A stretch of 24,817 bases of DNA from a virus, in IMG/VR virus record IMGVR_UViG_3300046517_000575, positions 1-24,817 of that record; one strand, 5' to 3'. The position numbers were made by a program, and so were the translations under genes. The number at the start of each line of letters is the position of its first letter. Position 1 is the first letter of the stretch. The notes below the pieces were generated by a model that saw nothing but the letters and a program-made list of their open reading frames with translations, was not told the origin of the DNA and ran no database searches. Below are positions 2,595-22,728 of this stretch, piece after piece.

Positions 2595-2879
2595 TCAAGC
2601 CCACGCAAACATGGTCGAGCCGATGATGTCGAAGGCCGCATCCTTGGACAGCCCGATGTGCTCGTTGAGTTCGTAGGCCCAGCGGTGTGCTTCGTCGTAG
2701 GTGGTGAAGGTCTTGCCCTCAATTGGGCAGTAGCCCTGTTCGTCCTTGACGGCCACGCCAAGGCAATAGCCAGCCCGAGAGACGGTGGCAACGAAGGCAT
2801 AGACCTTGCCGTGGAACGCGCCCGCGACCTTCTGGTCGAGGATCGCGGCCTCGAGGTTCCGGTTCGTGATGTCAGTCAT
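2595..2879 (-). CDS. 94-aa hypothetical protein
   Basis: ATG at 2879 with GCAAGGGGAACT at 2883-2894. The product (MTDITNRNLEAAILDQKVA onward) looks soluble and alpha/beta, with a conserved-looking TYDEAHRWAYELNEHIGLS segment near residues 59-77. No family is recognised. It is first in a two-gene minus operon with the secreted protein and is expressed from the promoter-like sequence at 2916-2944. Confidence 0.7.
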   Translation of the reverse strand: MTDITNRNLEAAILDQKVAGAFHGKVYAFVATVSRAGYCLGVAVKDEQGYCPIEGKTFTTYDEAHRWAYELNEHIGLSKDAAFDIIGSTMFAWA

Positions 2880-2882
2880 TCT

Positions 2883-2894
2883 AGTTCCCCTTGC
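2883..2894 (-). promoter_or_regulatory. Extended Shine-Dalgarno element GCAAGGGGAACT
   Basis: Exact 12-nt copy of the element at 2164-2175, on the minus strand 3 nt before the ATG at 2879. It fixes the start of that gene. Confidence 0.75.
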
Positions 2895-2915
2895 GGGCCG
2901 GAATGGCCCTGACGG

Positions 2916-2944
2916 GTTATGGCACAGGGTGAATTACCCTGCAA
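2916..2944 (-). promoter_or_regulatory. Candidate promoter with operator for the 2879-2280 operon
   Basis: Minus strand: TTGCAG (2944-2939), 17-nt spacer, CATAAC (2921-2916), 36 nt before the ATG. The inverted repeat AGGGT-N5-ACCCT (2926-2940) occupies the spacer and touches the -35 hexamer, so a bound repressor would block RNA polymerase. It matches the layout at 2197-2225. Confidence 0.5.
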
Positions 2945-2957
2945 GAGGGCTTACGCA

Positions 2958-2973
2958 GGTTTCACGTGAAATA
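2958..2973. promoter_or_regulatory. parS-like palindrome
   Basis: GTTTCACGTGAAAT (2959-2972 within this 16-bp site) contains the perfect palindrome TTTCACGTGAAA. It matches the bacterial chromosomal parS core GTTTCACGTGAAAC at 13 of 14 positions. It lies in the divergent gap between genes starting at 2879 (minus) and 3016 (plus). It could bind host ParB, or act as an operator for an unidentified regulator. Confidence 0.5.
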
Positions 2974-3015
2974 GTTGAAAATAATTCTGCCGCTGTAATG
3001 CAAGGGGAAATCGCC

Positions 3016-3246
3016 ATGAAACCCTGCCCGATCTGCCAGCATGAAGGCCAAGCGACGATCTGGCCCTATCTGAAGGGCGGGACAGGGCGCGACGGCGAGC
3101 GCATCGACTGGCTGCGCTGTTCGTTCTGCCATGCGCTGTTCTCGGACCTGACGAAGCCGCGAGGGGTCTACGCGCCCATGTGCCATGATCCCGCGCTCTG
3201 CATGCCCAAGGGCTACTGCCCGCGCGATCCCGCCTGTAACGAATGA
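3016..3246 (+). CDS. 76-aa Cys-rich zinc-finger-like protein
   Basis: ATG at 3016 with GCAAGGGGAA at 3000-3009 upstream. The product begins MKPCPICQHEG and carries CSFC about 30 residues later. This gives C-x2-C ... C-x2-C of a zinc-ribbon type, followed by a C-terminal cluster of four more Cys (MCHDPALCMPKGYCPRDPAC). Such small proteins are common in phage accessory regions and the function is unknown. It is the only gene on the plus side of the divergent gap holding the parS-like site and begins a plus-strand block. Confidence 0.7.
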   Translation: MKPCPICQHEGQATIWPYLKGGTGRDGERIDWLRCSFCHALFSDLTKPRGVYAPMCHDPALCMPKGYCPRDPACNE

Positions 3247-3264
3247 GACAATCGGGAACCTGCC

Positions 3265-3516
3265 ATGTCCAACATGAAGACGGTCTCGCTGGTCGCGCAT
3301 GAGACGCGGCTGGCGAAGGCCGAGAGCGCCGCCAAGCTGGATGCGGTGGCGCAAGACCTGTATGCTGCGCTGGAGCCGATCAGGGCGCAACTCAAGGGGC
3401 TGGAAGCCGCAATCCGGCTGACCAACGAAATGGTGCAGCGGCAGGATGAGTTCACCACCAAGACGCTGTCGCAACTGTTGACCGATGTGGAAGACCTGAA
3501 GCGGAGACCGACATGA
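3265..3516 (+). CDS. 83-aa coiled-coil hypothetical protein
   Basis: ATG at 3265 (MSNMKTVSLVAHETRL onward) with GGGAA upstream. An alternative ATG lies at 3274. The sequence is rich in Ala, Leu, Lys and Glu with heptad-like spacing from about residue 15 to 80 and has no Cys, so a single long helix or coiled coil is likely. Function is unknown. Its stop overlaps the ATG of the following 21-aa ORF (ATGA). Confidence 0.6.
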   Translation: MSNMKTVSLVAHETRLAKAESAAKLDAVAQDLYAALEPIRAQLKGLEAAIRLTNEMVQRQDEFTTKTLSQLLTDVEDLKRRPT

Positions 3517-3578
3517 AGCTGACCGCCAAATGCCCGAAATGCGGCATGCGCCACAAGCCGGGACCGTGTCCGAAATGA
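3513..3578 (+). CDS. 21-aa Cys/His micro-protein
   Basis: ATG at 3513 overlaps the previous stop (ATGA), and the stop at 3576-3578 overlaps the next ATG. The peptide, MKLTAKCPKCGMRHKPGPCP plus a final Lys, has C-x2-C-x3-H-x5-C, a compact zinc-knuckle-like pattern. Its ATGA junctions on both sides argue that it is translated. Function is unknown; metal and nucleic-acid binding is inference from the pattern. Confidence 0.5.
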   Translation: MKLTAKCPKCGMRHKPGPCPK

Positions 3579-3709
3579 GGCAGGCCAGCACCAGACAGTT
3601 GAAGACCCTGCGCGCCAAGGGCAAGCTATTGCTGCGCAAAACACGCGGGATCAAGGTTGGGACGAAGCGCGGAACGTACCAGCGCAGACCGACGCAAAAG
3701 GCTCAATAA
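3575..3709 (+). CDS. 44-aa highly basic micro-protein
   Basis: ATG at 3575 in the ATGA overlap with the previous stop, TAA at 3707-3709. About one residue in three is Arg or Lys (MRQASTRQLKTLRAKGKLLL, then RKTRGIKVGTKRGTYQRR). It has no recognised domain. The composition suggests nucleic-acid binding, which is inference. It ends a chain of three tightly coupled ORFs starting at 3265. Confidence 0.45.
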   Translation: MRQASTRQLKTLRAKGKLLLRKTRGIKVGTKRGTYQRRPTQKAQ

Positions 3710-12968: not shown

Positions 12969-13268
12969 TTGGTCAAGCTGGTCGAGGTCGAGCCGGGCAA
13001 GTTCCGCGTCGAACGGTCAAGGCCTCGACCAGCGCGTTCCGATCTGGCGCTGCCCAACATCATCTCCGATCAGATGCCGCCGACCGAACAGGTGGACGGC
13101 AAATTCTACGAGAGCAAGCGCGCCTTCCGCGCCGTCGGCAGATCGCTGGGCCTGATCGAAATCGGCAACGAAAAACAGAAGCCGAAGACGCGCGTGAACG
13201 ACAAGGCGGGCCGCCAGCGATCGATCCACAAGGCCATCGAGAAGTACAAGGCGGGGCACCGTGCCTAG
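12969..13268 (+). CDS. 99-aa conserved phage protein with TTG start
   Basis: The open frame extends to 12651, but the upstream part is a shadow of the SPRY-like gene. The likely start is the TTG at 12969 (then VKLVEVEPGKFRVE), with GGGATGG about 10 nt upstream. Conserved-looking features are RSDLALPNIISDQMPPTEQV and DGKFYESKRAFRAVGRSLGL then IEIGNEK. This is the form of a small podovirus protein that I recognise as recurrent but cannot name. The C-terminus is basic. It overlaps the next gene by 8 nt. Confidence 0.65.
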   Translation: MVKLVEVEPGKFRVERSRPRPARSDLALPNIISDQMPPTEQVDGKFYESKRAFRAVGRSLGLIEIGNEKQKPKTRVNDKAGRQRSIHKAIEKYKAGHRA

Positions 13269-13437
13269 CACCTCCGAAAAGCAGCGCCGCTTTATGGCGG
13301 CAGCAGCACACTCTGCAAAATTTGCAAAAGAAGCAGGCATCAAGCAATCGGTCGCGCAGGAGTTCAACCGCGCCGATCAGGCCAAAGGCCGCCGCAACGC
13401 CATCAAGAAGGCGTTCAAGAAGACCAATCTGAAATAG
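13261..13437 (+). CDS. 58-aa conserved phage micro-protein
   Basis: GTG at 13261, TAG at 13435-13437. The sequence starts VPSTSEKQRRFMAAAAHSAK then FAKEAGIKQSVAQEFNRADQ. This is the S-x-K-Q-x-x-F-M-x-A-x-A-H pattern of a small protein widespread in phage structural regions, of unknown function. The C-terminus is strongly basic. It overlaps the preceding gene by 8 nt, and its stop codon forms part of the AGGAG ribosome binding site of the scaffold-like gene. Confidence 0.7.
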   Translation: MPSTSEKQRRFMAAAAHSAKFAKEAGIKQSVAQEFNRADQAKGRRNAIKKAFKKTNLK

Positions 13438-13447
13438 GAGCACGAAT

Positions 13448-14659
13448 ATGTCAGACGTTACCGTTGCCCCCGATGGGGGCGGCGCACCTCCTGCTGCGTC
13501 CAGCGAAGTCGTCATCAACGAGAACCCGGTCGCCTCGCCGAACCCGGTTGGAAGCCAAGCGCCCGACAAGCCGGTCGATCACGCCGATGCGCGCCGGGAG
13601 AGCATCAAGGCGGCCTTTGATCGCGCCAACAATCCCCAACCCAAGGCCGAACGGCCAAAGCCCAAGGTCGAGCCAGCCGAGGCGAAGGCGGGCCACAACA
13701 ATCCACCCGAGGAGACCGAGAAACTCAATCTCAAGAAGCGGCCCGACGATCAGCCCAGAGGCGACCAGCCGCGAGATCGTGGCCGGTTCGCCCCACGACA
13801 GCAGGATGTCAATCAACAGGCCGATGCCGGAACACGCCCCGCCGCCAAGCAATTGCCCGAAGGCACGCCCTACCGCGAGCCGCCGCCGCGCATGGCCGAG
13901 CACGCCAAACGGGAATGGGCCAACGCGCCAGAGAGCGTGCGCGGCGAAGTCCACCGCATGCATCAGGAATTTGGCGCGGCGTTCCAGCGCCATCGCGCCG
14001 ACGCCGAGGCGTTTGCCCCGATCCGGCAATTCCACCAGATGGCGCAACAGCACGGCACCACGCTGGAGCGTGCGCTCAACAACTACGTCTCGATGGAACA
14101 GAAGCTGCGCGCCGATCCGATCGGCGGGCTGGATGTCATCGTCAACAATCTGAACCTGCGCACCCCGGAAGGCCAGAAGCTGACGTTCCGCGACATTGCC
14201 TACCATGTGCTGTCGCAGTCGCCCGAGCAACTCAAGATGCTGCAACAGGGCAACGCGCAGACCGCCGCCTCGCACCAGATCGGAGCACTGCATCAGGAAA
14301 TCGCGGGCTTGAAACAGCACCTCGCGCAGATGCATACTCAACAGCAATTTGTCTACACCCGGTCGCAGGTCGATCAGTTCGCTGACAGCCATCCGAGGTT
14401 TGACGAACTGGGCGACCTCATCGAGCAAGAACTCAAATTCGGGTTCGATCTCGAAACCGCCTACCGGCGCGCGGAACTATTCCGCCCGACCACCCATGCG
14501 GCTCAGACCCGCACCCCATCGGCTCAGACCCGACCCGCCGACAAGAGCATTTCTGGAAGCCCTGACGTGTCTCCCTCAAACGGAGCGTCACGATCCAAAA
14601 AGCCAGTCGGTCGCCGAGAAGCAATCCAGAACGCCATGCGCGCGAACGGAGTGCTTTGA
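13448..14659 (+). CDS. Scaffold-like protein preceding the major capsid protein
   Basis: ATG at 13448 with AGGAG at 13436-13440. The 403-aa product has a disordered Pro/Asn/Asp-rich N-terminal 150 residues and a helical middle (about 150-330) with RMHQEFGAAFQRHRADAEAF and LRADPIGGLDVIVNNLNL. It contains long Gln-rich helices and a basic C-terminal end (SRSKKPVGRREAIQNAMRAN). Size, helicity, charge and position directly before the capsid gene fit an assembly scaffold, whose basic C-terminal helices bind capsid subunits. No homology test was possible. Confidence 0.8.
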   Translation: MSDVTVAPDGGGAPPAASSEVVINENPVASPNPVGSQAPDKPVDHADARRESIKAAFDRANNPQPKAERPKPKVEPAEAKAGHNNPPEETEKLNLKKRPDDQPRGDQPRDRGRFAPRQQDVNQQADAGTRPAAKQLPEGTPYREPPPRMAEHAKREWANAPESVRGEVHRMHQEFGAAFQRHRADAEAFAPIRQFHQMAQQHGTTLERALNNYVSMEQKLRADPIGGLDVIVNNLNLRTPEGQKLTFRDIAYHVLSQSPEQLKMLQQGNAQTAASHQIGALHQEIAGLKQHLAQMHTQQQFVYTRSQVDQFADSHPRFDELGDLIEQELKFGFDLETAYRRAELFRPTTHAAQTRTPSAQTRPADKSISGSPDVSPSNGASRSKKPVGRREAIQNAMRANGVL

Positions 14660-14706
14660 ACCCCTGAGAGGCATCGCAAGCGCGAGCCTGAAACGATGGA
14701 GCCGAC

Positions 14707-15729
14707 ATGGCAAATATCAACACCAACGCTGCATATCAGCAGATACTGAGCATGGCGCTGGAGGATCGTTCTTCCAGCTACCAAGACCTCGTCTCGAACA
14801 CCAACGCCCTTCTCGCCGTCATCAAGCGCAAGGGCTTGTGGCAATCCTACTCTGGACCGCGCATTCGGCAGACCTTGCAGGTCTCCAAGAACGTCGCCCA
14901 GTGGTATTCTGGCTACGATCAATTGCTGAACCCGGCAATTGACCTGTTCAACGATGCCTTCTTCGATCCGAAGATGGTCGTCGTTCCCGTCATCCTCTCG
15001 ATGCAGGAAATCCTCAACAACGAGGGTCAGGCGCAACTGATGGACGTTTACGACAGCTACATCGACGCTGCCGAGCGTCTTCTTCAGGACACGATGGATG
15101 CAGGCATCTACAGTGACGGCACCGCCAACGGCGGCAAGCAGATCACCGGGCTTGCCACCGCCGTGCCCATCGTCGTCAACTCCGGCACCTACGGCGGTAT
15201 CGACCGCAGTGCTGCCGCGATCTGGCGCACCTCTATCTTCGACGCCCAGACCTTTAATACGGGCATCGGCACGCAGGTATTGTCAACCACCATCCGCCCG
15301 TTCCTCAACGCAATCATGACCAACCGTTCGCGCAACCGCGACTACGCGGACTTGCTGATCATGTCGCCGGAACACTACGCGGCCTATGACGCGGCAACTG
15401 TCGCCATCCAAAGGCAGCAGAACGAGACCTCGCTTGGCAAGCTGGGCTTCTCGGCTCTGGAATATATCGGCGGCGGAAAGCGCGCCGAGATCGTGCTCGA
15501 CGGTGGCATCGGATCGAACATGCCAGCGAACACCACGTTTGGCCTGAACACCGACACCTTCCGGCTGCGCTACCATCCCTCGCGTAACTTCGACAAGGTG
15601 TTCGACGGCGACGGTATGATGCCAATCGACAAGGACGCCATCGCGCAGTTCATCGGCTGGATGGGCGAACTCACGATGACGAACCCGCTGTTCAATTGGA
15701 GGTTTTATGATAGCAACCCGGCAACCTAA
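14707..15729 (+). CDS. Major capsid protein, HK97-fold type
   Basis: ATG at 14707 with GGAG 5 nt upstream. The 340-aa product builds the capsid shell. Typical features are an N-terminal helix (MANINTNAAYQQILSMALED), the long conserved segment with SYIDAAERLLQDTMDAGIYS followed by DGTANGGKQITGL, an ADLLIMSPEHYAAYDAA region and a C-terminal FRLRYHPSRNFDKVFDG. It follows the scaffold and is intact in length. The last codons (15697-15729, W-R-F-Y-D-S-N-P-A-T) look recoded: an in-frame near-copy lies 0.4 kb downstream at the end of the HNH gene that overlaps this 3' end by 23 nt. Confidence 0.9.
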   Translation: MANINTNAAYQQILSMALEDRSSSYQDLVSNTNALLAVIKRKGLWQSYSGPRIRQTLQVSKNVAQWYSGYDQLLNPAIDLFNDAFFDPKMVVVPVILSMQEILNNEGQAQLMDVYDSYIDAAERLLQDTMDAGIYSDGTANGGKQITGLATAVPIVVNSGTYGGIDRSAAAIWRTSIFDAQTFNTGIGTQVLSTTIRPFLNAIMTNRSRNRDYADLLIMSPEHYAAYDAATVAIQRQQNETSLGKLGFSALEYIGGGKRAEIVLDGGIGSNMPANTTFGLNTDTFRLRYHPSRNFDKVFDGDGMMPIDKDAIAQFIGWMGELTMTNPLFNWRFYDSNPAT

Positions 15730-16147
15730 GGGTTGTGTCGAGTGGAAGGGTTACGTCGGCAATCACGGTTACGGAGTTCAATCCGTAGCCGGTCGTCCTA
15801 CTCTGGTGCATCGACGCGCATACGAGGACAACTTCGGCCCCATACCGAAGGGAATGTGCGTCTGTCATCGTTGCGACAATCGGCTTTGCGTGGAGCCGCG
15901 TCATCTTTTTCTCGGCTCCATCGAAGACAATACGGCTGACATGATGCAAAAATCTCGTCAGGCGCGCGGCGAGCGTCACAGTCAGGCAAAGCTAACCGAA
16001 GCCGATGTTGTAAACATCAGGCGGGAGTACGGTTCCGGCCCTACTCAGCGAGAAATCGCAAAACGTCACGGTGTCTCAATCGGCACGGTATCCATGATCG
16101 TCAACAAGAAGATTTGGCGTTCCTACGACTCGAACCCGGCGGCTTAA
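15697..16147 (+). repeat. Recoded duplicate of the capsid gene tail flanking the HNH insert
   Basis: The capsid gene ends (15697-15729) W R F Y D S N P A T stop, and the HNH gene ends (16115-16147) W R S Y D S N P A A stop. Eight of ten residues match, but only about 21 of 33 bases. TAC GAC in the downstream copy is TAT GAT in the upstream copy, and this is what creates the HNH start codon. Confidence 0.75.
15707..16147 (+). CDS. HNH homing-type endonuclease overlapping the capsid gene 3' end
   Basis: The 146-aa protein starts at the ATG at 15707, out of frame inside the last capsid codons. It has the HNH features GCVEWKGYVGNHGYG (9-23), HRRAYEDNFGPIPKG (35-49) and CVCHRCDNRLCVEPRHLFLG (51-70). 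The DN and His residues are those of the beta-beta-alpha metal fold. A helix-turn-helix (TQREIAKRHGVSIGTVSMIV, 113-132) would read DNA. It lacks the FWxKV N-terminus seen in the second HNH protein here, as if trimmed to fit. Its last residues repeat the capsid tail. Likely role: cutting uninserted capsid genes to spread the insert. Confidence 0.9.
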   Translation: MIATRQPKGCVEWKGYVGNHGYGVQSVAGRPTLVHRRAYEDNFGPIPKGMCVCHRCDNRLCVEPRHLFLGSIEDNTADMMQKSRQARGERHSQAKLTEADVVNIRREYGSGPTQREIAKRHGVSIGTVSMIVNKKIWRSYDSNPAA

Positions 16148-16176
16148 TCAGCCGACGCTAGATGCCCCTCGCATCG

Positions 16177-16206
16177 AGACCGCGCGATGCCCCCGTCGCG
16201 CGGTCT
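16177..16206 (+). terminator. Intrinsic terminator after the capsid/HNH genes
   Basis: An 11-bp GC-rich stem (AGACCGCGCGA, 16177-16187, paired with TCGCGCGGTCT, 16196-16206), 8-nt loop, followed by TTTCCTTTCTC. It lies 30 nt past the HNH stop and would separate abundant capsid transcription from downstream genes. Read-through could still supply the tail genes. Confidence 0.8.
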
Positions 16207-16229
16207 TTCCTTTCTCAATGGAGAACCAC

Positions 16230-16925
16230 ATGCGTAACGACCCCGACGACGCGCTGGTCGCGTTGTTCAAGCACCACGCCAATCACAACGAGGCCAAGAG
16301 CCTCGCTGCGGGCCGCCCGATCTTCGATGACGTTGAGGTCTGCGAAATCCGCAAGCCCGGCTCGAAGGACTACAGCGTGCATCCGGCCACGGAATTTTCT
16401 CACTGGGATGTCGATCCGATCACCGGCAGTCAGGTCAAGGTCACCTATGCCGAGCGTTTCCAGAGGCAATATCAGCAGTTCAAGGCCAAGGCGGCGCAGA
16501 CCAAATCCGGCACGCCGCTGGAGCATGCCAAGTTCCTGACCGAGGGCCGACGCGCCGAACTGCGTGCCCAGAACATCTACACGGTCGAGGCGCTCGCCAC
16601 CATCGACGGGCAGGAACTGAAAAACCTTGGACCCGGCGGCAGGGAACTGAAGAACGCCGCGATGGAATACATCGAGGAGAGCAAGGCGAGCGTGCCATCG
16701 ATGGCGATGCAGGCCGAACTGGAAGCCTTGCGCGCCAAGAATGCCGTCTTGCAGGAAGACCTTGAGGCGGCGAAAGCCTCTGGCGAGGGTGAGTTCAGGG
16801 ACATGAACCTCGAACAGTTACGCGAGTTCATCACCGCACACACCGGGCATGCCCCGATAGGTACGGCGAACCGCAAGACGCTGGTGCGGATGGCGATGGA
16901 AGCAAGACCGGAGAAGGTAGCCTGA
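16230..16925 (+). CDS. Conserved post-capsid podovirus protein
   Basis: The chosen start is the ATG at 16230 (MRNDPDDALVALFKHHANHN) because GGAG lies 6-9 nt upstream; an ATG at 16218 lacks a site. The 231-aa product carries EVCEIRKPGSKDYSVHPATE, then a YAERFQRQYQQFKAKAAQTKSGTPLEHAKFL pattern and NIYTVEALATIDGQELKNLG. I recognise this as a conserved protein found directly after podovirus capsid genes, of unknown function. The C-terminal third is a coiled coil (about 150-190) plus a SAP-like helix pair (LEQLREFITAHTGHAPIG). A capsid-assembly or completion role is inference. Confidence 0.75.
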   Translation: MRNDPDDALVALFKHHANHNEAKSLAAGRPIFDDVEVCEIRKPGSKDYSVHPATEFSHWDVDPITGSQVKVTYAERFQRQYQQFKAKAAQTKSGTPLEHAKFLTEGRRAELRAQNIYTVEALATIDGQELKNLGPGGRELKNAAMEYIEESKASVPSMAMQAELEALRAKNAVLQEDLEAAKASGEGEFRDMNLEQLREFITAHTGHAPIGTANRKTLVRMAMEARPEKVA

Positions 16926-16926
16926 G

Positions 16927-17634
16927 ATGACACTGTTGTCGGTGGTGAAGGATGTCTGCGCCAACGTGGGTGTTCTTGTCCCGCAGAGTGTGTTCTCCAA
17001 CATCAGCGGCAACCGCACCATGCAGGAAGTGTTGTCGCTTGCCAACGAGATGGCGCAGCGCATCGCCTACGACACACGGGACTGGACGAAGCTGAAGACG
17101 ATCGCGACCTTCACCGGCGACGGCACCACGCAAAACTTCAACTTGCCCTCCAACTACAAAAGGATGCTGCTGACGGCCAATGTCTGGCTGTCAACCACGC
17201 CGAACCATCCGATGCGGTTCGTGCCCGATCTCGACGTGTGGATGCAGCGCCGCACCCTGAACCGCAACGACCCGTGGGGAGAATGGACGATGGTTGGCGG
17301 CCAGATGCTGATCTTTCCGATCATGGGCGTCGGTGTTACCGGGACGTTCGCCTATCTCGACAAGAACTGCATCAACCTCACCTCTGGCGGAAGAGGCGAC
17401 AGCTTCATGGCTGACGGCGACAGTTTTGCGCTGGACGAACGTGTCCTGAAGCTGGGCATGACGTGGCAGTGGAAAGCACAGAAGGGAAGTGCCTACTCCG
17501 AAGACATGTCTACCTACGGCGATGCGCTGACCTATGCGATGGGCCACGACAGCCCGTCGCCGACCATTGTGGGAAGCCTGCCGTCTTCCGCAGCCCCCAA
17601 TGTAGCCTATCCCTATCCGGTGCCGACGCCGTGA
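16927..17634 (+). CDS. Candidate head-tail adaptor protein
   Basis: ATG at 16927, one base after the upstream stop, with GGAGAAGG upstream. The 235-aa product starts with two helices (LSVVKDVCANVGVLVPQSVF, then EVLSLANEMAQRIAYDTRDW), followed by beta-rich segments (NFNLPSNYKRMLLTANVW, then EWTMVGGQMLIFPIMGVG). It ends with a Pro-rich tail. This layout and place fit the adaptor/connector family that docks under the portal (P22 gp4-like in role). The assignment rests on fold style and order. Confidence 0.65.
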   Translation: MTLLSVVKDVCANVGVLVPQSVFSNISGNRTMQEVLSLANEMAQRIAYDTRDWTKLKTIATFTGDGTTQNFNLPSNYKRMLLTANVWLSTTPNHPMRFVPDLDVWMQRRTLNRNDPWGEWTMVGGQMLIFPIMGVGVTGTFAYLDKNCINLTSGGRGDSFMADGDSFALDERVLKLGMTWQWKAQKGSAYSEDMSTYGDALTYAMGHDSPSPTIVGSLPSSAAPNVAYPYPVPTP

Positions 17635-17653
17635 TTATTGCGAGGGCAAAATC

Positions 17654-19330
17654 GTGAGCCAGCATCAGGCGCTTCGACGGGTGGCGGTGCCGGGGCAGGT
17701 CGCGCAGCAGATGCAGACCACCACGCTGCCCGCGCCGACGCGCGGCATCGTGCAGAACGAGAACGAGAGTTTCATGTCGCCGGGCGGCGCGCTGGTCTGC
17801 GACAACTGGGCACCGACCATGAAGGGCGTCAAGCTGCGCGGCGGCTGCGTCCGCTGGTGCGTGCTGCCCGAGACCACGCCGGTCATTTCCGGGTTCGAAT
17901 ATGCATCCGGTAACGTCCAGAAGATGTTCGCGGGCAACGCCACCAAACTCTACGACGTGAGTGCGACGACGCCCGTTCTGGTGAAGTCGGGCCAGCTATC
18001 CGGCAACTACTGCGCCAGCCAACTCGCCAACCAAAGCGGCGGCGACTATTTGATGGTGGTCAACGACGCCGGGGATTATCCGCTGCGCTACGACGGCACG
18101 ACGTGGACTGTGCTGAACGCGGGCCAGATCACCGGGCCAGCCGGAACGTCCGTCGTTGCCGGGCACAATCTCACCTACGTCTGGAAATACCGCAACCGAT
18201 GGTTCTTCATCGAGGGCGGCAGCATGAACGCCTACTATTTGCCGCTGAACGCCATTCAGGGCGCGCTGTCGGCGATCCCGCTGTCCGGGGCCGCGACCAA
18301 AGGCGGCAAATTGTTGTTTGGTGCGACGTGGAGTGTGGACGCAGGCGACGGCATTGACGACAAATGCGTGTTTGTCACCGATCAGGGCGAACTCCTGATC
18401 TTCACCGGCAGCAATCCCTCCGATAGCGCCAACTGGCGGCAGGAAGGCCGATACCAAGTACCGGCCCCGATGGGGATGAACGCCCACATGGCGATGGGCG
18501 GCGACATGCTGATTGCAACGGTGGCGGGCATCGTGCCGATCTCGGCGTCGATCTCCAAAACCCCGGAACAACTCGAACTCGCCGCCATCACGCTGACGAT
18601 CAAGCCGATGTGGCGCGACGAGGTCAACGCCAAGCGATCGTGGGCGTGGACCATGAAGAACTGGGAAGAGTACGGCGGCATCTTCGTGACGTGGCCGGGC
18701 GGCAATCCCGGCAACCAGTATTGCGCGGTGGTCAATGCCGCGACCGGAGCGTGGTGCCGCTTCGTCGGTTACGACGCCACCTGCTTCATGCGCGTTCGCG
18801 GCGACATGTTTTTCGGGACGCAAACCGGGATCATCATGCAGGCCGACCGCACCGGTCTGGACGACGGCTTGCCCTATACGGCGGTTCTGGTGGGCGGCTG
18901 GGAGATGTTCCAAAGCCCGTCGCAGACCATCACATGGCGGCAGGCGAGGGCGTCGTTCTCCGCATCCAACGGCCAACCGTTCCAGCCGCAACTCTCGGCG
19001 ACCGTGGACTATGTCGTCACATTGCCGACGCCGCCGCCGCCGGGCGTCGATCCGGGGATCGCCGATGTCTGGGATCAGGGCCATTGGGGACCGGACATGG
19101 GCGGGCCGCCGCCGCCGGTCCCGACCGCCCCGCAACGCGCGCAATACGCCCAGTGGGATCAGGCCGCGCCCGGCAAGCCCGTGGTGAGAAACACCGGCTG
19201 GGTTTCCATCGGGATGACCGGCTACACCCATGCGCCGATCGTGCAGGTGACGGTGGCGCAGCAGGCCAAGCCGATCGTGGAATTGATCTCGATTGCCGCG
19301 ACGTTCGAGCGTTGCGGCATCAACGTCTGA
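17654..19330 (+). CDS. Tail-hub / DNA-stabilisation-like beta-rich protein
   Basis: GTG at 17654 with GAGGGCAAAA upstream. The 558-aa product is beta-rich throughout with repeated Trp/Gly turns: WAPTMKGVKLRGGCVRWCV (52-70), an NRWFFIEGGSMNAYYLPL segment, CVFVTDQGELLIFTGSNP, and MGGDMLIATVAGIVPIS. The pattern is like the beta-propeller-type proteins that plug podovirus portals (P22 gp10-like in role). A Pro-rich loop (PTPPPPGVDPG, then GGPPPPVPTAP) interrupts the last third, and the end is RCGINV. A long antisense open frame here is a composition artefact. Confidence 0.75.
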   Translation: MSQHQALRRVAVPGQVAQQMQTTTLPAPTRGIVQNENESFMSPGGALVCDNWAPTMKGVKLRGGCVRWCVLPETTPVISGFEYASGNVQKMFAGNATKLYDVSATTPVLVKSGQLSGNYCASQLANQSGGDYLMVVNDAGDYPLRYDGTTWTVLNAGQITGPAGTSVVAGHNLTYVWKYRNRWFFIEGGSMNAYYLPLNAIQGALSAIPLSGAATKGGKLLFGATWSVDAGDGIDDKCVFVTDQGELLIFTGSNPSDSANWRQEGRYQVPAPMGMNAHMAMGGDMLIATVAGIVPISASISKTPEQLELAAITLTIKPMWRDEVNAKRSWAWTMKNWEEYGGIFVTWPGGNPGNQYCAVVNAATGAWCRFVGYDATCFMRVRGDMFFGTQTGIIMQADRTGLDDGLPYTAVLVGGWEMFQSPSQTITWRQARASFSASNGQPFQPQLSATVDYVVTLPTPPPPGVDPGIADVWDQGHWGPDMGGPPPPVPTAPQRAQYAQWDQAAPGKPVVRNTGWVSIGMTGYTHAPIVQVTVAQQAKPIVELISIAATFERCGINV

Positions 19331-21822: not shown

Positions 21823-22307
21823 TGCTCGACTACGTCTACGGCCACGATCAGATCGTTGCGCGCTTTGTGGCTGATCTGATCCCGCATTGTCACCGAGGCT
21901 TCGGGCCGAACATCAAGGCAATGGGCGTGGTCGATGAAGAAGGCAAATTGATCGCAGGCATCGTGTATTCAAATTATGACCCAGAGGCTGAAACAATTGA
22001 GATCAGCGGTGCAGCCCTTCCGGGCAAGTATTGGCTAACTAGAGGCACTATCGAACGCATGTACGTCTATCCGTTCTTGCGTTGCGGTTGTCAAATGATC
22101 TACCAGAAAACGCCAGCCGATAATGAGCGCCTACTGGGGATATTGGCGGCTTACGATTACTCGTTCATTCCTGTGCCGAGAATGTTTGGTCGCGAGCAAG
22201 ATGGTGTTCTGTGCGTACTGACATACGAAGCATGGTGCGCCAACAAATTTAATCGACGTTTTAAGCATCATTTGCGAGACATTGCTCGCCATGCGGAGGC
22301 TGCGTGA
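21822..22307 (+). CDS. GNAT-like acetyltransferase-fold protein
   Basis: ATG at 21822 overlaps the previous stop. The 161-aa product has beta strands AMGVVDEEGKLIAGIVYSNY (33-52) and ETIEISGAALPGKYWLTRGTIERMYVYPF. A motif A-like RMYVYPFLRCGCQMIYQKTPADNERLLGIL segment is followed by AAYDYSFIPVPRMFGREQDG (109-128), similar to GNAT-type proteins kept in podovirus structural operons. The canonical Q/RxxGxG/A acetyl-CoA loop is reduced to R-C-G-C, so catalysis is uncertain. The 3' end is antisense to the minus-strand HNH gene for 47 nt. Confidence 0.7.
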   Translation: MLDYVYGHDQIVARFVADLIPHCHRGFGPNIKAMGVVDEEGKLIAGIVYSNYDPEAETIEISGAALPGKYWLTRGTIERMYVYPFLRCGCQMIYQKTPADNERLLGILAAYDYSFIPVPRMFGREQDGVLCVLTYEAWCANKFNRRFKHHLRDIARHAEAA

Positions 22308-22728
22308 CATGCCTCCATGCCTCGCCACGTCTGATCCTGTTTATTGTTGCGCGTGTGACACCGAATTTAGCCGCGAGTTGCTGTCCGTTGCCTTTGTCAC
22401 GGAATATCGTGAGTGCGATCGAAGGCGTAAGCCTTGTGGTGCCCGGCCCCTTCCCCTTAATTCGCATGTCGCGAGAATTATCAGCATGCGTTCCGAGAAA
22501 CAGATGATCAGGATTGACGCACAGGGTGTTGTCGCAGCGATGACAAACGCAAGCGCCTTCTGGGATAGGTCCGAAAGTATGTTCAAAACTAGCGCGATGG
22601 GTATGGACAGTTTTGCCATCCACGAGAGCATTTCCGTACCCGTTGATAGGCCTACTCTTTGCCCCGCGCCAGTTCCAGCAACCGCCGGGCGTGCGATCAA
22701 CCTTCGACCAAAATCGTTCTGTGAGCAT
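22261..22728 (-). CDS. Antisense HNH homing-type endonuclease
   Basis: ATG at 22728 on the minus strand, 155 aa, stop at 22261. It has the complete family layout: FWSKVDRTPGGCWNWRGAKS (6-25), HTHRASFEHTFGPIPEG (42-58), CVCHRCDNTLCVNPDHLFLG (60-79), and a C-terminal helix-turn-helix QQLAAKFGVTRATINRI (116-132) ending GEAWRHV. The last 14 residues (TQPPHGEQCLANDA) read into the antisense strand of the GNAT-like gene, as if the insert lost its own stop. It fills the 450-nt gap between plus-strand genes. No clear Shine-Dalgarno; a TATAAT lies 8 nt before the ATG (22741-22736). Confidence 0.9.
   Translation of the reverse strand: MLTERFWSKVDRTPGGCWNWRGAKSRPINGYGNALVDGKTVHTHRASFEHTFGPIPEGACVCHRCDNTLCVNPDHLFLGTHADNSRDMRIKGKGPGTTRLTPSIALTIFRDKGNGQQLAAKFGVTRATINRIRRGEAWRHVTQPPHGEQCLANDA

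Follow-up and report, generated by a model that had tools for sequence, protein, structure and literature searches.

Homing of group I introns and inteins places a nuclease gene inside an essential gene, preserves the product of that gene and destroys the target site. In fungal mitochondria, mobile ORFs carry a foreign C-terminal stretch while the native one lies downstream, as described for atp6 of Allomyces macrogynus and for atp6, atp9, cox2, and nad3 of Glomus (PMC3630166). There, a LAGLIDADG or GIY-YIG endonuclease ORF is located in the 3′ part of an essential gene, the imported replacement of about 50–240 bp bears many synonymous differences, and the native C-terminal stretch is left behind the nuclease (PMC3630166). 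Among phages, the seg and mob genes of T4 are intronless, lie beside essential genes and overlap the upstream gene with their starts by 11–24 bp (23 bp for mobA and 20 bp for segC), and the free-standing homing endonucleases of T4 carry flanking sequence along at homing (PMC2988022). The review by Edgell treats split genes (Aeh1 nrdA/mobE, T4 gene 60/mobA) and intergenic sites; its text is free of the string "duplicat", and no passage was found in it on a gene end that an insertion had doubled in recoded form (PMC2988022). No phage precedent of such a gene end was found in the literature searched, which does not prove its absence.

In this study, an HNH gene at the end of a phage capsid gene was analyzed in a viral DNA of 24,817 nt (IMG/VR record IMGVR_UViG_3300046517_000575, positions 1 to 24,817; hereafter the window). 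We estimate a probability of about 0.82 that the 3′ end of the capsid gene was invaded by a cassette in which a replacement tail is combined with the gene of a free-standing HNH homing endonuclease. The invaded gene (14707–15729, + strand) encodes a major capsid protein of 340 aa, as indicated by its relatives and by the match to PHROG 9953 major head protein (E = 2.6e-79). It terminates in NWRFYDSNPAT, as the initial annotation had stated, and its working, upstream tail (WRFYDSNPAT and stop) occupies 15697–15729 (+). Also as annotated, the HNH ORF (15707–16147, +) uses another frame, starts 23 bp inside the capsid ORF and ends in KIWRSYDSNPAA and stop, that is, WRSYDSNPAA. This second ending (16115–16147, +) appears to be the remnant of the old capsid 3′ end, now fused in frame as the C-terminus of the HNH protein, and the 33-base ends of the two ORFs are mismatched at 12 positions. 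The TGGAGG motif, a good ribosome-binding site (RBS), and the HNH ATG 4 nt downstream of it both lie within capsid codons (15697–15709, +). That start codon is created by the capsid codons TTT TAT GAT (read as T-TTT-ATG-AT); compared with TTC TAC GAC in L003, the closest insert-free relative, the annotated change from TAC GAC to TAT GAT and the new ATG are visible. Like T4 mobA and segC, the window HNH starts inside the upstream gene, with a 23 bp overlap (PMC2988022).

The HNH protein of 146 aa is an HNH_3 endonuclease with a C-terminal helix-turn-helix; it matched the PF13392 profile with 44.7 bits, above the curated cut-off of 24.8, and also PHROG 1872 endonuclease. Its N-terminus is about 7 residues shorter than that of the relative at 22261–22728, as had been noticed from the sequence. 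The HNH motif (15860–15905) reads CVEPRHL, while most relatives have CVNPxHL; the asparagine position is Glu in the window HNH, Glu or Lys in L088 and L093, and Asn in other relatives. Since Glu replaces the usual Asn, activity of the window HNH is uncertain, and the protein may be weak, dead or changed. The relative at 22261–22728 is an antisense (−) gene, and in L003 another HNH gene, in sense orientation, is located one gene farther (listed with L312:9083–9540); nuclease turnover in the phage group of the window is high.

The capsid frame is continuous and has its own stop, so that no intervening element of the group I intron or intein type is present, and no Rfam match was found in the window. 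The essential gene product is preserved as in intron and intein homing, but here with neither an intron nor an intein. The likeness to the fungal mobile ORFs is closer. An endonuclease ORF in the 3′ part of an essential gene, a replacement C-terminal stretch with many synonymous differences and a native stretch downstream of the nuclease are common to both; the native stretch is found in the window itself, and the imported synonymous gene end upstream of the nuclease is found across the site in related phages. Because the nuclease is of HNH_3 type in a phage, not LAGLIDADG or GIY-YIG in mitochondria, the element works alike but is not a member of that class. The phage case further differs in that HNH and HNH-AP2 genes of DNA phages are involved, that several unrelated nucleases occupy one site, and that the remnant is sometimes the C-terminus of the nuclease itself.

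The ending shared by the two proteins belongs to the capsid. Nearly all of 185 capsid loci naturally end in (W)R.(Y/F/I)DSNPA(A/T) or DSVPAS, the prophage capsids of Rhizobium, Mesorhizobium, Afipia, and Brucella terminate in DSNPA or DSVP(A/G)S, and W331, D335, S336, and P338 are invariant among 12 diverse capsids, so a replacement tail would be needed by any element that disrupts this end. In contrast, YDSNPA is absent from the ends of all 32 HNH relatives taken from elsewhere; their termini are W(R/K)H(I/V) and stop, or otherwise. Therefore, the YDSNPAA of the HNH protein is capsid-derived, and the earlier judgment that the shared tail is foreign to the HNH family and not due to chance was borne out on both counts. 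The frequent W-R/K termini of the HNH family, which resemble the capsid tail, would speak for a coincidence or for an ending inherent to that family, yet the 0/32 count and the native capsid 3′ flank found directly past the remnant make such an explanation negligible.

That flank was identified with L003, the capsid of which is 98% identical in protein and 92% in DNA; a flank-pattern search for a closer empty allele returned L003 only. L003 is without a net 418 bp that the window carries (15705–16122, +, from the L003 alignment), that is, this close relative has a clean version of the site without the gene; the ends of this insert are uncertain by several bases, as the tail is repeated. In L003 the capsid stop is followed by TCAGCCGACGTTAGATGC and then the terminator, as is the HNH stop in the window, and the order of capsid stop, TCAGCCGACG, terminator and next gene matches the DNA past the window HNH stop. 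Likewise, TCAGCCGACGTTAGATGCACCTCGCATCGAG, the terminator hairpin and the next gene lie 3′ of both stops. The native capsid terminator, directly behind the capsid stop in L003, is at 16176–16207 (+) in the window, and the next structural gene (16218–16925, +) starts 489 nt past the capsid stop, vs. 69 nt in L003. Homology to L003 starts in the remnant at 16115–16147 and spans its stop. The downstream copy therefore sits where the capsid gene formerly ended.

It had been predicted that an insert-free capsid gene would be followed by the terminator region at 16148–16206 and would end in DNA closer to 16115–16147 than to 15697–15729. The first part agrees with L003, while the second fails: L003 has 7 mismatches of 33 to the downstream and 5 to the upstream copy (over the last 27 bases, 5 to each), and TGGAGG and AGC are common to L003 and the upstream copy. 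Therefore, taken by itself, the window would also fit a simple tail duplication, in which end joining or staggered-break repair doubled about 30 bp of the resident capsid tail, no donor tail was involved and both resident copies later drifted. The TGGAGG and AGCAACCCGGC shared between the upstream copy and L003, together with the similar divergence of both copies from L003 (5 and 7 of 33), speak for such a duplication. The 5/33 differences of the upstream tail are not significant at the gene's own divergence (p = 0.10), and the three consecutive C to T synonymous changes in the window fit recoding better than drift, though again not significantly. The pair of window and L003 thus does not decide which copy is foreign, and a donor origin of the upstream tail is unproven there.

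The capsid site proved to be invaded repeatedly. Several of the first 80 capsid relatives have a long gap behind the capsid gene that holds HNH-AP2 endonucleases, and after widening by searches with HNH-AP2 nucleases and another capsid, 27 distinct insertions at the capsid end were obtained, most of them HNH-AP2 genes, of several types and unlike the window HNH; most of the contigs are metagenome assemblies. The old-tail motif was found near the nuclease end in 10/27 capsid-site genes vs. 1/72 nucleases elsewhere (Fisher p = 5e-6; the insertion loci share ancestry, so this and the further p values overstate independence and are indicative), and the strict motif occurs at about 0.27% of random positions. 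The single outside match, L173, is also a capsid-site locus, with its capsid gene off the contig. This difference in motif rate also refutes a chance or family origin of the ending. About 17 of the 27 insertions have no remnant that passes the strict motif. For four loci (L134, L136, L148, and L126), an interpretation as serial insertions, in which a newer nuclease would precede an older one, was rejected, since the additional stretch encodes, without a change of frame, a second AP2 domain (L126:2119–2898, L134:2986–3750, L136:2365–3141, and L148:1257–2000); the L126 frame also extends into a downstream small MARKPKPKPTKKG gene. In a Rhizobiales prophage (isolate AFS095166, L283:4001–5640), a capsid-end HNH-AP2 gene follows a recoded tail, with no clear old-tail remnant.

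The remnant lies in the nuclease frame in the window, L070, L260, L127, L240, L136, and L129, giving nuclease termini EDSNPAA in L070, L260, L127, L240, and L136, and TNPAA in L129. Such in-frame tails, present in several nucleases of two types, could suggest a function in the HNH protein, for example binding of capsid partners by the nuclease, kept or acquired by selection. This is most doubtful, as the remnant is out of frame or behind the nuclease stop in L144, L050, L143, and L173, and is absent in others; in L144, L050, and L143 it is located at or behind that stop.

The independent insertions then identified the native copy. In the final 21 bases, compared in each pair with an insert-free relative, the remnant had 0 mismatches and the working tail 7 in L260/L233, 0 and 6 in L240/L243, 1 and 7 in L127/L243, and 3 and 8 in L144/L266. 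Homology to the empty allele begins 4–5 bases before the end of the old capsid stop in L206 and L123, and in further pairs at −22 to −4, within the coding bases of the old tail. The third-position GC of the last 13 codons, relative to the gene body, was shifted by −0.27 in inserted genes (n = 28) and by 0.00 in empty ones (n = 84; p = 4e-12), demonstrating the recoding of the working tails. In two cases the capsid 3′ end was replaced abruptly: mismatches were absent until 126 nt before the stop in L076 vs. L199 and until about 108 nt before it in L240 vs. L242, with many after these points. Among 25 insertions, the distances of capsid body and nuclease were uncorrelated (r = 0.03), while those of tail and nuclease were correlated (r = 0.42, partial 0.44, permutation p = 2e-4).

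Judged from these sequence comparisons, the recoded working tails move together with the nuclease, not with the capsid. The direction is settled by the recurrence at the site, with the downstream copy apparently native and the upstream tail apparently imported, and the initial claim that the downstream copy is the original capsid 3′ end is upheld by the empty site of L003 and by the independent insertions. The further claim that the insert brought a recoded capsid tail holds site-wide in other phages, whereas in the window alone the evidence stays at p of about 0.1. A duplication of the resident tail is accordingly improbable: elsewhere the working tail departs from the empty allele at 6–7 of 21 bases and the remnant is identical to it, the tail tracks the nuclease, and the working tail, with many mismatches behind capsid sequence that shows none until 108–126 nt before the stop, is clearly foreign.

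Transfer of flanks together with the gene, as described for T4, may be reflected in the abrupt tract boundaries of the AP2-type insertions and, for the window HNH, in the mosaic contig L002, which is possibly a chimeric assembly. L002 is identical to the window at 13017–13990 and from 14449 to 17208, and to L003 at 14035–14377 and from 17295; compared over window positions 13017–17745, it is window-like from 14378 to about 17250 around the HNH gene and L003-like on both sides. This fits a transfer of the window HNH with its flanks, by natural recombination or as an assembly chimera. A chimeric assembly could give such a mosaic, and the window itself could be suspected of being two alleles stitched together in metagenome assembly. 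An artefact is hardly credible, as the same structure is present in three further contigs and, combined with other nucleases, in numerous contigs of different samples, and as four prophage records carry it at another gene (see below).

For the invasion as a cassette, we infer the following course. The nuclease would break or nick the insert-free capsid gene within its last roughly ten codons, and the nuclease-bearing genome would serve as the repair template. On the left side, homologous recombination inside the capsid gene would give the recipient the recoded tail, the stop codon and the nuclease gene of the donor; on the right side, rejoining to the recipient at or near the cut would leave the last old capsid bases behind the nuclease. 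With the conserved NWRxYDSNPA ending encoded in the imported tail, the capsid protein would hardly change, and the recoded DNA should escape cutting. In the window, the nuclease frame happens to read into the remnant, giving the YDSNPAA terminus.

A screen for a repeated gene end at 76 other HNH loci with an upstream gene singled out only one group, in which an HNH-AP2 gene follows a lambdoid antitermination gene N, recognized from its homology to annotated N genes, in four prophages (L183, L184, L185, and L187, around 2693–3700). Their N bodies are of three dissimilar kinds, yet the last approximately 15 codons and the nuclease are almost identical. The working ending is SENITAR, and behind the nuclease a recoded ending, SENVTAR or ESVTAR, was found, while insert-free N genes terminate in YRKSKQLTAR. 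This N-gene remnant also lies outside the nuclease frame, which again argues against a function of the tail in the nuclease. Neither an exact empty allele of the N-gene element nor the N-site nuclease DNA in E. coli genomes, phages, and plasmids was found. The N gene looks like a parallel case, with the same arrangement at another essential gene. Two other candidates were dismissed, an integrase/HNH pair of Gordonia, the genes of which are convergent, and the HNH gene between internal virion protein genes of the T7-like Ro45lw, where a repeated end is absent.

Capsid-site HNH-AP2 genes carry a strong hairpin of about 9–17 pairs at the RBS (L050:7024–7125, L029:7024–7100, L076:1172–1240, L070:7024–7092, and other HNH-AP2 loci), the arms of which differ among families while the pairing is kept. 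These hairpins resemble the RBS-sequestering hairpin of Aeh1 mobE, as summarized from a reference in PMC2988022. No RBS hairpin was detected at the window HNH (z = −0.28), which instead starts inside the capsid gene.

The principle has a precedent in the fungal mitochondrial mobile ORFs; the broad recurrence is the surprising part. Since the arrangement recurs with other nucleases as well as in another essential gene, it seems to represent a general invasion route that uses neither an intron nor an intein. Phages may well host a general class of natural home-and-rescue elements, in which unrelated nucleases carry a recoded 3′ end of the essential gene that they cut, replace it on arrival and leave the old end as a scar, at the capsid gene in phages of Hyphomicrobiales and relatives and at antitermination N in lambdoid prophages. 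As outlined for HomeR (PMC7968924), engineered home-and-rescue drives rest on this logic too, in that a nuclease is inserted into an essential gene, the remainder of which is recoded and cut-resistant; being synthetic CRISPR constructs in insects, they are alike in principle only. The capsid site thereby links phage homing with the fungal mitochondrial cases and with that drive logic, and it is ready-made for asking whether recoding gives resistance. As the scar would mark the break-repair point, likely cleavage sites would be readable from the sequence. The 3′ ends of genes near homing genes can differ in history from the remaining gene, which is a warning for their comparison. A selfish nuclease can thus occupy an essential gene without splicing, by bringing a replacement for what it breaks.
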